From Symploca sp. SIO2C1 (lineage in GTDB: Bacteria > Cyanobacteriota > Cyanobacteriia > Cyanobacteriales > Coleofasciculaceae): 64,000 bases of DNA. How positions within the stretch are numbered: position 1 is the first letter of the stretch; every line of letters starts with the position of its first letter. The notes under the pieces were generated by a model, which worked only from the letters and a program-made list of their open reading frames with translations, searched no databases and was not told the DNA's origin. The stretch covers positions 1 to 64,000 of the forward strand of contig JAAHGL010000022.1 in the NCBI GenBank assembly GCA_010692635.1, read 5' to 3'. Positions 57,383 to 63,442 of the stretch are shown piece by piece. Position numbers and translations under genes: made by a program.

Positions 57383-58468
57383 TTAACTTGTCACCAATGA
57401 CTCCCCAGTCTCTCGTTCTCTCGAAGCGGTAGAGAGTGCTAACTCAATCAACTTATCAACTAACTCTGGGAAGGGAATACCCGTTGCTGCCCAAAGTTGG
57501 GGGTACATACTGGTAGAAGTAAAACCTGGTAGGGTGTTAATTTCGTTAAGGAAAATTTCTCCAGTAGCTTCAACATAGAAGAAATCCACTCTTGCTAAAC
57601 CAGCGGCATCAACAGCAACAAATGCCTGAGTGGCCATCTCCCGAATTTGATTAGTAATGTTATCTGGCAGTGGTGCGGGAATTAACAACTCGGCTCTGCC
57701 TTCAGTGTATTTGGTTTCGTAGTCATAGAAATCACTTTCATAGGTAATCTCGCCAACTACGGATGCTTTGGGATGTTCGTTGCCTAAGACAGCGCATTCT
57801 ACTTCCCGTACCACTACTCCAGCTTCTACAATGATTCTGCGGTCGTAACTAGCAGCACTATCCAAAGCTGCTTCTAATTCAGAACGCGATCGCACTTTGG
57901 CAACCCCTACTGATGAGCCTAAATTGGCTGGTTTGACAAAATAGGGATAATCTAGGGTTGCTTCAATTTGGTCACAAACTTTAGGAAACACGCAAGGACT
58001 AGACCAAACTTGCGATCGTAGAACTTCAACGTATGGCACTTGGGGTAATCCTACCTTAGCAAAGGCTGTCTTCATTGCCAGTTTGTCCATACTCACTGCT
58101 GAACCGAGTACACCTGTGCCAACAAAAGGGACTTGCATTAAAGTCAGTAATCCCTGAATTGTGCCATCTTCTCCATTAGGGCCATGAAGGATAGGAAACC
58201 AGACATCCACTTCTGTTACCTGAGAGGGAAATTGCCAGAGATTACCACCGGTTGGAGATGGTAGAGTTTTTCCCGATTCGAGTACTTGTTGAGCTATCTC
58301 TCCTGTTTGCCAAATGCCGTCTTTTTGGATATAAACTGGCAATAGTTCGTACTTTTGAGTATTTGGGTCTACATTTAAAGCCTTAGCGATCGCTTGTGCA
58401 GAAATAATCGATACTTCGTGCTCCCCTGAACAACCACCAAATAATAGTCCAACCCGTAATTTTGTCAT
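57383..58468 (-). CDS. ddl: D-alanine--D-alanine ligase
   Basis: This makes the D-Ala-D-Ala dipeptide for peptidoglycan. The start is the ATG at 58468 ([12 protein letters not shown]), with AAGGA 7 nt upstream; the longer frame adds six residues. The 361-aa ATP-grasp enzyme shows [61 protein letters not shown] and the metal-binding Glu/Asn. The two genes upstream on the same strand are unrelated. Confidence 0.96.
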
Positions 58469-58516
58469 GACTAATCCTTCTGGCACTCCTCATCGCAGAT
58501 AGGGTATCTTGACACT

Positions 58517-58538
58517 CCCCGCGCCTAAAGGCGCGGGG
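58517..58538. repeat. IS605-type right-end hairpin
   Basis: CCCCGCGCC, TAAA, GGCGCGGGG: a perfect 9-bp stem overlapping the tnpB stop codon. Such subterminal hairpins mark IS200/IS605 ends, and in active elements the region also yields the guide RNA. Confidence 0.85.
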
Positions 58539-59220
58539 ATTCTAAGTTCACCGTAGCCACTTGCTCTACCAGGGTCACCCCAAATAGAGTAGAGGCAGCT
58601 ACTCCCTTAGCGTTACTTCGGGGATGCCCTCCCCTAGACTTTGCTTTAAGCAAAATATTTACTGCCGCATTTGTATCCCGATGCAAGGTACAGCCACACT
58701 GACAGACGTGAGTCCTTGTACTGAGAGATTTTTTGACTAGCCGTTTACATCGAACTCGCTTGATAGCTTGGACAGGATAGGTGTGAATATCCCACTTACC
58801 TAATAGCTTAAGCTCCCCAATACCTTTGTTATCCGTAATAGTGAGTCGTCGCTTACTCTTGTGAAGCTTCCATCCTGATGTCTTGTACTCAACTGAACGG
58901 TTGTCTTTCTGAAACCTAGGATATCCTTTCTTTCCAGGCTTCTTGGATTTGCAATTATCGTAAAACCGATTAATTGCAATCCATGTCCGTTCAGCAGAAG
59001 CCTGACAAGCCATTGAGTTGAGGTCTTTGACAAATGTGAATTCGTTACGTAGTTCTGTTGAGTATTTGTTCAAGTCAAAACGCTTGAGATTAGCCTGTCT
59101 TGGTGCATCCATCCAATAACGTAAGCACTTGTTACGGATAAACTGAACCGTTCTAATGGCTTCATCGATAGCTCGGTATTGAGCTTGTTTAGCTTGGACT
59201 TTGTACTCTAGAACTAGCAT
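58525..59220 (-). pseudogene. tnpB: IS200/IS605 tnpB with internal deletion of the RuvC core
   Basis: The start is the ATG at 59220 (MLVLEYKVQAKQAQYRA). Residues 1-~175 match the TnpB N-terminus (HTH/OrfB_IS605 region ending near IKRVRCKR). The sequence then jumps to LVKKSLSTRTHVC and the end RDTNAAVNILLKA. About 170 residues normally between, with the RuvC Asp and Glu and the first zinc CxxC, are gone, leaving 231 aa against the usual ~400. The frame is intact, so it is either a decayed element or a nuclease-dead derivative. No tnpA is present. Confidence 0.85.
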
Positions 59221-59287
59221 TGAATCGACCTGTGTCAATGTTCTTGTTATATTATACCTAGTACAATGACATGTGTCATGACACAAA

Positions 59288-59467
59288 ATGAAGGACAAGA
59301 AACTAGAAGTAAGGATGACAGCTTACGAAATGCTTCAACTAGAGCAGGAAGCTACTAGGCGTGGCATGACCAAATCAGAATTAATGAGAAGTCTGATAGC
59401 AAAATTTCCAGAACCAAAGGACTTCAAGGCGCTTAAAAGCGCTACCTTGCCTTCATCCGCCATCTAA
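59288..59467 (+). CDS. Small RHH-like protein beside tnpB (59 aa)
   Basis: ATG at 59288, stop at 59465-59467; the gene is divergent from tnpB, 67 bp away. The sequence KKLEVRMTAYEMLQLEQEATRRGMTKSELMRSLIAKFPEP fits a ribbon-helix-helix DNA-binding protein, with a short tail encoded by the element's hairpin DNA. Similar small RHH genes beside tnpB are, from memory, common in cyanobacteria. It may repress the tnpB promoter in the shared gap. Confidence 0.65.
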   Translation: MKDKKLEVRMTAYEMLQLEQEATRRGMTKSELMRSLIAKFPEPKDFKALKSATLPSSAI

Positions 59468-59610: not shown

Positions 59611-60585
59611 ATGGTTCAGTCTCAAACCCCGATCGACGAACAACTCCGTCCTTTTCCTGACCATACCCAACTACCAGAATCTGATGGAACCTTTGTGAAG
59701 AACTTTCAAGAACATCCCCAAAGCTTGCTTTTGACTGATTCTATTGAGCCAGTCTTGCAAGAACTTCACCCTGATAATCACTATGCGATCGGTCAAGATT
59801 CCGGCATCTACTGGCGCGAGACAGACCCCCCCGAAAAAGGTGCTGAAGCTCCTGATTGGTTTTATGTGCCTGGAGTGCCGCCGCGACTCGATGGTAAGAT
59901 TCGACGCTCTTATGTCCTCTGGCGGGAGTATGCCACACCTCTAATTGCCCTGGAGTTTGCCTCAGGTAACGGTGCAGAAGAAAGGGATAAAACACCGTTG
60001 CAAGTAGTCAAGGGAACAGTGCAAAAACCAGGAAAATTCTGGGTATACGAACAAATTATTCGTATTCCTTACTATGGGATATTTGTTATCGATACAGGAG
60101 AGTTGGAAGTTTACCACTGGGAAGATGGGACTTATGAGCGTTTAAGTGCTAACGATCGAGGTCACTATCCGATTAACCGGATGAATGTAGAAATAGGAGT
60201 GTGGCGAGGGACTTATCTAGGTCAATCGGAACAAGCTTGGTTGCGGTGGTGGGATCTTAATGGGAATCTACTCCTGACAGGGAAGGAACGGGCAGTGATT
60301 GCGCAGCATGATGTTGAGAAGGAACGGCAACGAGCTGAACAGGAACGGCAACAAGCCGAGCAGGAACGGCAACGAGCTGAGCAGGAACGACAACGAGCTG
60401 AGCAGGAACAGCAACGAGCTGAGCAGGAACGGCAACGAGCCGAGAAGGAACGGCAACGAGCCGAGCAAGAACAGCAAAGAGCTGACCAAGAACAGCAAAA
60501 ACGGCAACAGTTGGCAGCTCAATTGAAGGAGATCACTCCCGAACAACTTCAGAAGTTAGGAATTGATCCGGAACTTTTGGCATAA
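59611..60585 (+). CDS. Uma2 family (DUF820) protein with C-terminal heptad coiled coil
   Basis: The 324-aa protein has a Uma2 nuclease-like domain (about 45-215: APDWFYVPGVPPRLDGKIRRSYVLW, active-site LIALEFASGNG, then KFWVYEQIIRIPYYGIFVID) and a coiled coil (about 232-300) of about nine QERQRAE heptads encoded by near-identical 21-bp units, ending ITPEQLQKLGIDPELLA. This long subfamily is common in cyanobacteria. It has no apparent operon partner. Confidence 0.87.
   Translation: MVQSQTPIDEQLRPFPDHTQLPESDGTFVKNFQEHPQSLLLTDSIEPVLQELHPDNHYAIGQDSGIYWRETDPPEKGAEAPDWFYVPGVPPRLDGKIRRSYVLWREYATPLIALEFASGNGAEERDKTPLQVVKGTVQKPGKFWVYEQIIRIPYYGIFVIDTGELEVYHWEDGTYERLSANDRGHYPINRMNVEIGVWRGTYLGQSEQAWLRWWDLNGNLLLTGKERAVIAQHDVEKERQRAEQERQQAEQERQRAEQERQRAEQEQQRAEQERQRAEKERQRAEQEQQRADQEQQKRQQLAAQLKEITPEQLQKLGIDPELLA
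60315..60503 (+). repeat. 21-bp tandem repeats encoding coiled-coil heptads
   Basis: Nine units of the type CAGGAACGGCAACGAGCTGAG encode QERQRAE heptads in the Uma2 gene. High DNA identity suggests copy-number change by slippage. Confidence 0.9.
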
Positions 60586-60636: not shown

Positions 60637-60751
60637 TAGGACTTACGCACCCAACTGTCATGCTGAGGTGATAGTGAAGCATCACCGGCCGTTTGGAGAT
60701 CCTTCGCTATCGCTCAGGATGACATAATTCTGTTACGGTGCGTAAGTCCTA
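60637..60751. mobile_element. TAGGACTTACGCACC-family MITE, copy 1
   Basis: TAGGACTTACGCACC and GGTGCGTAAGTCCTA are perfect 15-bp inverted ends of a 115-bp element with AGATCCTTCGCTATCGCTC in the middle. A copy missing the left end lies at 63266-63346. The gap up to 60974 otherwise holds only an ATTCCCT run (60790-60818). Confidence 0.85.
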
Positions 60752-60974: not shown

Positions 60975-63122
60975 TTAACCAAACCATTTTTGACGAAGCT
61001 GTTCGTAAGTTCCATTTTCAATAAGTTTAAGCAGAGCTACATTAATCTTTTTGCGGTAAGGACTATTTATAGGAACAGCAAGACCATAGGATAGATTATC
61101 AAATACTGGACCAACTACTTGGGCTTGACCTTTACCATTTTGGTTGGCATAGTATTCCAGGATAGGAGCATCATAAACAATGGCTTCTACTTCCTCAGAT
61201 TGTAAGGCAAGAAAGGCTTCCTCCTTGGTATCATACTTAATAATCGCCATTCGCTGATTTTCTAGGAAAGTAACTGCACTACTGCTAGTCACTGTAGCTA
61301 CACGCCGACCGAATAAGTCTTCTAAGTTGTTGATATCACCCTGAAGTTCTTGAAGAGTGAAGGTAGTGGTAACACTGGCAGTAAAAAAGGCAAAGACAAA
61401 GTACCCAGCACACATCCAGATTAGAGCCACAAAGCGACCGAGAGGTCTTTTCGGTGTTTTATCTCCATAGCCTACAGTAGTCACTGTAACAGCAGACCAC
61501 CAGAAAGCTTCCCAAATCCCTTGGAAATAACTATGAGGAAAGTCAGAATTGTGATGACGTTCTGTCAGCCAAATAATGTGAGCTGTCACCAGTAAAATCA
61601 GAATAAAACCACCAATTCCATAGTAGAGCGTAGGTGATTTAAAAGCTGAGAGGAACTTTGTCAGCAGATTGGGAGTTTTTTCAGAAGCATTTGCTGAAAC
61701 TAAAATCTGTAGACCTGTGGAATAGTAAGGTAAGGAAAAATCTACACCTGTTTCTCGTTCTGAAGTCATGCCGATTGCAGAAATTGCCACATCTGCTTCC
61801 TGGCGTTTGACATCATCAAGGAGTTTAGCAATAGAGTTCACCCCGTAAAGTTGGTAATCAACTCCGATTTCATTAGCAATCATCTCCCAAAGCTCAATGC
61901 TAAATCCCCCGTATTCTCGCTGTTCATAGGTTACAAATGGTTCAAATCGCTGAGTTACCACCTTGAGGGTTTTGCCCTCTGCTGCTTTAGTATTCGATGA
62001 ACTATTGCCAGCTGCCTCTTCCACTTCCTGGCTCTTGACATTCTTCTGTTGGGGGAGTGACTTTTCTTGAGCAATAGCTGCATCTTTGGCTAACTTTAGC
62101 CATAAGCTTACTTGAGGACGATTGTCTTGAATCCATTTTTGAGCATGGCGGATAATATCGGCATTCTCTCCTTCACCAGCAACCATGAGAGCATTTTGAG
62201 ATGCGATATCAGCTAAGGGAATCTCCAACAATTCCAAAAGTTTTCTTACATCTGGTTTTGCCTGCAAGAAGTCAGTATTGGCAACTACGCGGATATCATT
62301 AGTAGGAAAACCAATATTGCAGGGTTCAGATGCACATCCAGACAACTTAGCAATAGTTGTTTGGTCTTCAAGATTAGTTTGTTCCTCTAACAAGCTAGAA
62401 AATGGAACCTTCAACCAAATCACATCCTTGCCTGGTTGCAATGTCCCCAAGATCCAGTTAGGAGTCCAATTGTAAAACAGGATGGGTTTTCCCTGTTGAT
62501 ATTTGGCAACCGCGTCGCTCATTAATGGAGAATAATCCCCCTGTACTTGCTCAACGGTATCCTTTAGCCCATAAACATCTAAGTGGTGTTCAATAACTGC
62601 TGCACAAGACCAATCTAGATTACAACCGATGAGCTCAGCTTTGCCATTACCGTCTCCATCAAATTCCTTAGCGATGTTAGGGTCTTTGAAGTCAGCTATG
62701 CTTTTAATGCCTAGGAAATCAGCACTGAGTGTATCTATCATGTAGCCTTGTAGAGCCCCACCTTTTTCTATAAAGCCAATAGCTTCCACTTTTTCTTTAA
62801 TCTCTGGTTGCTGATGATAATCTCTAACATTGGGAAACCAACTATTAGCCCAAAGATCAAGATCACCTCTAGCAGTATCTCGGTAGAAGTCTGCCGTAGT
62901 TCGTGTAACGGGCTCTTTGACTTCGTACCCCAGCTCTTCGAGCAACAATTTCAGAACTTCTACCTGAAACCAACCAGTATCCCAGGTAGGGCGAGCAATT
63001 CTGATGGGGGGAGAATTTGCTGACACACTGAGGCTTGGTGTTGACACTGTCAAGATAATTATCAGAGCAACACTCAAACAGAGTAAGCATAAACGAAAGG
63101 GTTGAAGAGCGAACTTAATCAC
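60975..63122 (-). CDS. Fused glycine-betaine-binding (OpuAC/ProX) and ionotropic-glutamate-receptor-like K+ channel
   Basis: The 715-aa protein has a signal peptide (1-35). An OpuAC/ProX-type binding domain (about 40-345) carries aromatic ligand-box candidates W47, W51, W91, W94, W171, W219 and W223. A low-complexity linker (345-383) follows, then a glutamate-receptor-type module: S1 half (384-480, with TSERE and VDFSLPYY), TM1 (about 498-520), pore loop with K+ filter TVGYGD (549-554), TM2 (about 562-585), and S2 half (590-715, with VYDAPILEYY). The second part matches GluR0-type bacterial receptors. The first part resembles osmolyte importers. It predicts a two-domain ligand-gated K+ channel in the inner membrane. 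Confidence 0.88.
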   Translation of the reverse strand: MIKFALQPFRLCLLCLSVALIIILTVSTPSLSVSANSPPIRIARPTWDTGWFQVEVLKLLLEELGYEVKEPVTRTTADFYRDTARGDLDLWANSWFPNVRDYHQQPEIKEKVEAIGFIEKGGALQGYMIDTLSADFLGIKSIADFKDPNIAKEFDGDGNGKAELIGCNLDWSCAAVIEHHLDVYGLKDTVEQVQGDYSPLMSDAVAKYQQGKPILFYNWTPNWILGTLQPGKDVIWLKVPFSSLLEEQTNLEDQTTIAKLSGCASEPCNIGFPTNDIRVVANTDFLQAKPDVRKLLELLEIPLADIASQNALMVAGEGENADIIRHAQKWIQDNRPQVSLWLKLAKDAAIAQEKSLPQQKNVKSQEVEEAAGNSSSNTKAAEGKTLKVVTQRFEPFVTYEQREYGGFSIELWEMIANEIGVDYQLYGVNSIAKLLDDVKRQEADVAISAIGMTSERETGVDFSLPYYSTGLQILVSANASEKTPNLLTKFLSAFKSPTLYYGIGGFILILLVTAHIIWLTERHHNSDFPHSYFQGIWEAFWWSAVTVTTVGYGDKTPKRPLGRFVALIWMCAGYFVFAFFTASVTTTFTLQELQGDINNLEDLFGRRVATVTSSSAVTFLENQRMAIIKYDTKEEAFLALQSEEVEAIVYDAPILEYYANQNGKGQAQVVGPVFDNLSYGLAVPINSPYRKKINVALLKLIENGTYEQLRQKWFG

Positions 63123-63240: not shown

Positions 63241-63442
63241 GTGTCAACTTAAGCTAGAGATAGCTGATAGTGAAGCATCTAGGCCGTTTGAAGATCCTTC
63301 GCTATCGCTCAGGATGACATAATTACCAAAAGGTGCATAAGTCCTAGATTTTTGAGCAAATTGAGTCATCTTTAGATGACTTGAGCTATGAGTAAGGAAC
63401 TTAAGTTCCTTGTGGGGCAAGGATTTCACCTTAAGTTGACAC
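63241..63442. mobile_element. GTGTCAACTTAAG-family element with nested TAGGACTTACGCACC remnant
   Basis: GTGTCAACTTAAG and CTTAAGTTGACAC are perfect 13-bp inverted ends. Inside, 63266-63346 is a left-truncated copy of the 60637-60751 element (AGATCCTTCGCTATCGCTC, GGTGCATAAGTCCTA). The modules 63350-63442 match 54759-54846 in reverse. Confidence 0.75.

Follow-up and report, generated by a model that had tools for sequence, protein, structure and literature searches.

A GluR0-type K+ channel with a ProX-like N-terminal domain: a widespread bacterial fusion and a candidate link between betaine and K+ flux

The reverse strand of a 64,000-nt window of Symploca sp. SIO2C1 (contig JAAHGL010000022.1; the window is the whole stretch of DNA analysed, and all coordinates are positions in it) carries an open reading frame that starts with GTG, stops at 60975-60977 and contains no internal stops. 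Its product combines a substrate-binding domain and a ligand-binding channel in the following parts:

60975..63122, minus strand: OpuAC/ProX–GluR0-type K+ channel fusion gene, 715 aa (open reading frame, Pfam domains, intact orthologue)
63015..63122, minus strand: predicted signal peptide or N-terminal hydrophobic helix, residues 1-36 (sequence; helix 2-26 in the model)
62127..63008, minus strand: OpuAC/ProX-type substrate-binding domain, residues 39-332, last helix to about 355 (Pfam PF04069, phmmer, Foldseek)
62838..62840, minus strand: W95, equivalent to ProX W65, first Trp of the cation cage (alignment)
62826..62828, minus strand: V99, at the position of ProX H69 (carboxylate contact), replaced in this protein (alignment)
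62610..62612, minus strand: W171, equivalent to ProX W140, second cage Trp, flanked by C167 and C173 (C136 and C142 of ProX) (alignment)
62466..62468, minus strand: W219, equivalent to ProX W188, third cage Trp (alignment)
61971..62087, minus strand: linker from the binding domain to S1, residues 346-384, 39 aa (pLDDT, length comparison, dN/dS)
61683..61970, minus strand: S1 half of the amino-acid-binding domain, residues 385-480, with Arg456 (Pfam, structure match, alignment, model)
61560..61634, minus strand: M1 transmembrane helix, residues 497-521 (Ion_trans_2; helix in the model)
61461..61529, minus strand: pore helix and selectivity filter, residues 532-554 (Pfam; filter conservation)
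61461..61478, minus strand: filter TVGYGD, residues 549-554 (sequence)
61344..61445, minus strand: M2 transmembrane helix, residues 560-593 (Pfam; model)
60978..61343, minus strand: S2 half of the amino-acid-binding domain, residues 594-715, with Asp651 (Pfam, structure match, alignment, model)

As read from the sequence, the N-terminus has a basic n-region, a hydrophobic core and the ending VSA. Pfam coordinates and the structure model agree on the module order S1-M1-P-M2-S2, and the chain terminates at S2, M4 being absent. The gene is flanked by two copies of a short element (60637-60751 and about 63262-63346), the former MITE-like with perfect 15-bp terminal inverted repeats (TAGGACTTACGCACC). 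A TnpB-type transposon open reading frame (Cas12f1-like TNB domain) and a Uma2 gene, at 58525-59298 and 59611-60585, separate the channel from a D-Ala-D-Ala ligase gene (57383-58486); at the Symploca locus L009, the ligase gene directly follows the channel gene.

An earlier note, made from the sequence alone, had described this frame as one polypeptide joining an OpuAC/ProX-type domain to a GluR0-like channel, and had suggested Pfam searches and a structure prediction as checks. Both bear the description out. The OpuAC profile matched residues 39-332 nearly end to end (6.7e-46; profile positions 2-256 of 257), SBP_bac_3 matched residues 389-715 in a manner split by the pore (2.4e-26), Ion_trans_2 matched residues 510-588 (3.6e-14), and the glutamate-receptor models Lig_chan and Lig_chan-Glu_bd were found at 1.7e-13 and 5.1e-12, each of these matches exceeding the curated Pfam cut-off. 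A Pfam match to the eukaryotic-type N-domain (ANF_receptor/Peripla_BP) was not found in the protein. The ProX equivalog model of NCBIfam scored 347 bits against a cut-off of 215, and the nearest solved structures were E. coli ProX for the front half (1r9l, 1.5e-61, phmmer) and the ligand core of Nostoc punctiforme GluR0 for the back half (2pyy, 1.9e-51). In an AlphaFold2 model built from 41 fusion proteins (mean pLDDT 84.9), two clamshells were seen along with M1 (497-521), a pore helix (532-548) and M2 (560-593); Foldseek with this model recovered 1r9l and 2pyy (TM 0.80 and 0.83 by target) together with AMPA-receptor LBD-TMD chains. The linker is predicted to be disordered (pLDDT below 50 at residues 358-382) and, at 39 aa, is the longest of the compared set, relatives having 16-36 aa. 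No frameshift or assembly join between the domains, which the same note had named as grounds for refuting the fusion, was found, and the orthologue of Symploca sp. SIO1C2 is intact and 79% identical to the SIO2C1 protein over its full length. Comparison of these two gave dN/dS values of 0.15 for OpuAC, 0.17 for S1, 0.10 for S2, 0.33 for the pore and 0.35 for the linker. Because the OpuAC value is similar to those of S1 and S2, the OpuAC domain is constrained like the rest of the protein.

The intact fusion is present in more than 50 loci, isolates and chromosome-scale contigs among them. A scan of one genome per species located full-length fusions in at least six phyla, namely Cyanobacteria, Actinomycetota (Acidimicrobiia, Nitriliruptoria and Jiangellales), Chloroflexota, Desulfobacterota/Myxococcota-type MAGs, Bacteroidota and Kiritimatiellota, the last two represented by one MAG each. 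The isolates include Salsipaludibacter albus, Haloactinopolyspora alba and Halomicronema sp. CCY15110, and about 11 of 293 genomes in the order of SIO2C1 carry the fusion. The comparison with other cyanobacteria that had been proposed at the outset shows that the fusion occurs there and in other phyla; it is a multi-phylum family and not peculiar to cyanobacteria. A separate arrangement was seen in a Chloroflexaceae genome (L067:294-2465), where ProX is followed by SBP_bac_3 with no channel, making a tandem double binding protein.

The history of the two halves was followed in unrooted trees. In the channel-half tree, 26 stand-alone cyanobacterial channels form a clade apart from all fusions (starred branch), and in the free tree a Phormidium/Geitlerinema group that has no N-domain is nested among the fusions; this group is therefore read as a case of N-domain loss. 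A strict single fusion clade is not rejected for the channel half (p 0.21), and for the OpuAC half, where the fusions group together and apart from stand-alone ProX, the tree constrained to a single fusion clade has the better likelihood (AU p 0.85). Multiple independent fusions are not needed to account for these results. One ancient fusion with later losses of the N-domain is the simplest reading, and the trees are compatible with it. An origin of the OpuAC part from the host's own ProX was ruled out, the ProX copies of the SIO2C1 genome (L001 and L003-L006) grouping far off with E. coli ProX. Natural intermediates of N-domain loss are provided by L098 and L099, which have lost the OpuAC lobe that carries both Cys and two of the cage Trp, and by L100, where mere scraps of the OpuAC domain remain; all three keep the channel. 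Because all or half of the N-domain has been lost while the channel stays, the domain is dispensable in some cyanobacteria.

The outer binding site was compared across 61 fusions and 45 stand-alone ProX proteins, using E. coli ProX numbering and the roles that W65, H69, W140, W188, C136 and C142 have in the 1r9l structure. Positions 65 and 140 are Trp and the C136/C142 pair is complete in all 61 fusions, and position 188 is Trp in 53, the other 8 having Phe or Tyr. His69 is found in 51/61 fusions and in 45/45 stand-alone ProX. The SIO2C1 protein has the full cage and the disulfide cysteines (W95, W171, W219, C167 and C173), so far in agreement with the earlier proposal that its Trp-rich box points to betaine or a similar quaternary osmolyte; that proposal needs qualifying at the His69 position, where Val99 leaves the carboxylate contact of ProX unmatched.

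The inner site was examined in 45 fusions and 33 stand-alone channels. The S1 Arg and S2 Asp that had been recognised by eye were confirmed by alignment as Arg456 and Asp651; they are conserved in 45/45 and 43/45 fusions, respectively. The positions equivalent to T480 and T655 of GluA2 are more variable. Ser or Thr occupies the first (G451 in SIO2C1) in 31/33 stand-alone channels and in only 14/45 fusions, and Thr occupies the second (S615 in SIO2C1) in 31/33 against 15/45, so that SIO2C1 lacks the Ser/Thr at 451 and has it at 615. Ser/Thr is missing at one or both positions in 37/45 fusions compared with 1/33 stand-alone channels, an association with the intact N-domain that rests on 3 independent pairs; with just 3 such pairs, a tie between relaxed pocket and N-domain is not claimed. 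Because the T480/T655-type hydroxyl contacts are altered, glutamate is not to be assumed as the inner ligand; the change lowers the case for glutamate and leaves the GluR0-type fold unaffected, and an alpha-amino acid is a plausible ligand from the residues conserved. The K+-selective filter that the note had read in SIO2C1 stands, TVGYGD being present at residues 549-554 and in 43/45 fusions. Two Jiangellaceae fusions (L047:4806-6938 and L058:5161-7041) have the degenerate filter PFGAGN in its place and are probably not K+ selective.

The gene neighbourhood provided evidence of a different kind. A gene for a BCCT (betaine/choline/carnitine) transporter lies within 5 kb of the fusion in 41 of the 48 non-cyanobacterial loci, a set that includes close relatives; 4 of the 7 loci that have none are truncated on one or both sides by a contig end less than 1 kb away. 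The linkage spans Actinomycetota, Chloroflexota, Delta-type and Kiritimatiellota genomes with differing orientations, and in Delta-type loci the BCCT, an extra OpuAC gene and the fusion follow each other in that order on the same strand. In 8 of the 12 genomes searched whole, with BCCTs matched to loci by coordinates, the linked BCCT is the sole one of the genome; by a rough estimate, the chance that a sole BCCT falls within 5 kb of a given gene in a genome of 2.6-6.6 Mb is about 0.2-0.5%. The sequence SAG[ML]GIGL[ML]F or a one-letter variant occurs in 31/35 of the adjacent BCCTs, the other 4 being unmatched by the pattern, and we take its GxGIGL motif to be the mark of BetP-like betaine, not choline, carriers. 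A stand-alone ProX gene is also present in about 31 fusion loci. In L017, L021, L027, L030 and about 27 more, stand-alone ProX directly adjoins the BCCT, and no ABC ATPase or permease was noticed among the clustered neighbours of these pairs. Binding proteins are not known to serve BCCT carriers. In the flanks read of 16 cyanobacterial fusion loci, SIO2C1 included, neither a BCCT nor any conserved neighbour was found; the one BCCT of the SIO2C1 genome is away from the fusion locus. In two related cyanobacteria, a putative cation/proton antiporter, identified by eye, adjoins the fusion on the opposite strand (L140:7664-9262 and L141:5071-6666).

Known systems resemble the fusion in part. Synechocystis GluR0 (Slr1257) is a K+ channel of the plasma membrane whose two soluble parts lie outside and are needed for function; a ligand-gated K+ conductance and an inverted topology have been shown for it alone, and it acts in volume regulation, affecting cell volume under KCl upshock (PMC13099474). 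The SIO2C1 protein shares with GluR0 and with NpGluR0 of Nostoc punctiforme the S1-M1-P-M2-S2 order, the S1 Arg, the S2 Asp and the ligand-core fold, and its K+ filter is as in GluR0. Unlike them, it has OpuAC before S1, and Gly instead of Ser/Thr at position 451. Prokaryotic iGluRs consist of a ligand-binding domain and a pore, without an N-terminal domain, according to two reviews (PMC3483616, PMC12551409), as the earlier note had maintained of the described receptors. A 2010 domain survey of 100 sequences makes no mention of OpuAC or betaine (PMC2950845), and no description of an OpuAC–iGluR fusion was found in the open-access literature. With ProX of E. coli ProVWX (1r9l), the protein has in common the full-length OpuAC fold, the three cage Trp and the disulfide Cys pair; ProX, however, serves an ABC importer, whereas the SIO2C1 domain is fused to a channel and has Val99 for His69. 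OpuAC also sits covalently on a membrane protein in ABC betaine importers with an OpuAC–permease fusion (in the SIO2C1 genome L001, a 662-aa frame), but there the partner is an ABC permease and not an ion channel. Eukaryotic iGluRs (AMPA, NMDA, kainate and plant GLR) likewise have a second clamshell N-terminal to S1-pore-S2, but theirs is of the LIVBP type and M4 is present. Because the bacterial protein has an OpuAC-type N-domain, no M4 and a K+ filter, its second clamshell was acquired independently.

A K+ channel with a betaine cage and a betaine importer next door fits a device tying K+ flux to betaine. The reading we prefer, at a probability of roughly 0.6, is a GluR0-type K+ channel with an outer ProX-like domain that binds betaine and modulates the pore. 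The channel would lie in the plasma membrane with both clamshell sensor domains outside the inner membrane, and the inner amino-acid-type S1/S2 domain would drive the pore. The outer domain would bind glycine betaine or a related quaternary ammonium compound used as an osmolyte, and its closure on this ligand would modulate how the inner domain opens the K+ pore. In osmotic adaptation, uptake of K+ and glutamate comes first, followed by their exchange for compatible solutes (PMC13099474); K+ flux may in this way be linked to whether the osmolyte taking the place of K-glutamate is present. Where a BCCT importer is the neighbour, K+ exit could also offset the charge from Na+-coupled betaine uptake. 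The suggestion in the note that osmolyte sensing is coupled to K+ flux draws independent support from the BCCT linkage in other phyla, and lacks that support in cyanobacteria, where the linkage is missing. Since the linker of the SIO2C1 protein is long (39 aa) and predicted to be disordered, coupling could be weak there. We infer the ligand, the coupling and the physiological role; the likeliest function is that of a K+ channel modulated by betaine. More tentatively, the proteins may form a family gated by betaine or by the coincidence of betaine and an amino acid, acting as a switch by which K+ is exchanged for compatible solute, inherited together with a Na+/betaine BCCT importer in several phyla and representing an independent bacterial two-clamshell channel; this fuller version falls somewhat short of even odds.

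The main rival is an N-domain that does not gate, and linker disorder and cyanobacterial N-domain loss require it to be taken seriously. The amino-terminal domain of AMPA receptors is largely an assembly, anchoring and clustering module. The ProX-like domain would be such a module too, perhaps binding betaine, and the inner domain alone would gate the pore. This is consistent with a linker that is long, variable and disordered in the model, and with the existence of close relatives devoid of the N-domain and of the half-deleted intermediates L098-L100. It is nevertheless unlikely: the ligand cage and disulfide are near invariant across several phyla and a mere scaffold needs neither, nor does it need the betaine importers that these genes adjoin. 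For the SIO2C1 lineage in particular, the outer domain may have drifted to another ligand or be decaying, which would leave a K+ channel gated by amino acids and bearing a vestigial N-domain. Val99 in place of His69, the longest linker of the set, the lack of a BCCT neighbour and the eroded N-domains of other cyanobacteria point in this direction, but the retention of the three cage Trp and both Cys, and an OpuAC dN/dS of 0.15 that is not above that of S1, make it rather improbable. That OpuAC captures betaine and delivers it to a neighbouring BCCT or ABC importer, the channel half being mainly a membrane anchor, would agree with the linkage to BCCT and further stand-alone ProX genes; we regard it as very improbable given the intact K+ filter in 43/45, the invariant S1 Arg, BCCT carriers not known to employ binding proteins, and cyanobacterial fusion genes with no BCCT nearby. 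An artefact of assembly or gene calling that joined two genes has a negligible chance: the SIO2C1 genome is a 470-contig assembly, with no sign of such an error at the gene itself, and locus L059 is broken by a frameshift, but the independent intact orthologues, at more than 50 loci that include isolates and chromosome-scale contigs, rule out an assembly join or frameshift.

The fusion is a new and widespread architecture of prokaryotic iGluRs, whose N-terminal sensor is of the OpuAC type and was acquired independently. Reviews place the addition of the amino-terminal domain in eukaryotes; here, bacteria gained an N-terminal sensor of another origin, probably in a single event. As a betaine-modulated K+ channel, the protein would be a candidate for a known physiological step, the release of K+ as osmotically stressed cells accumulate compatible solutes.
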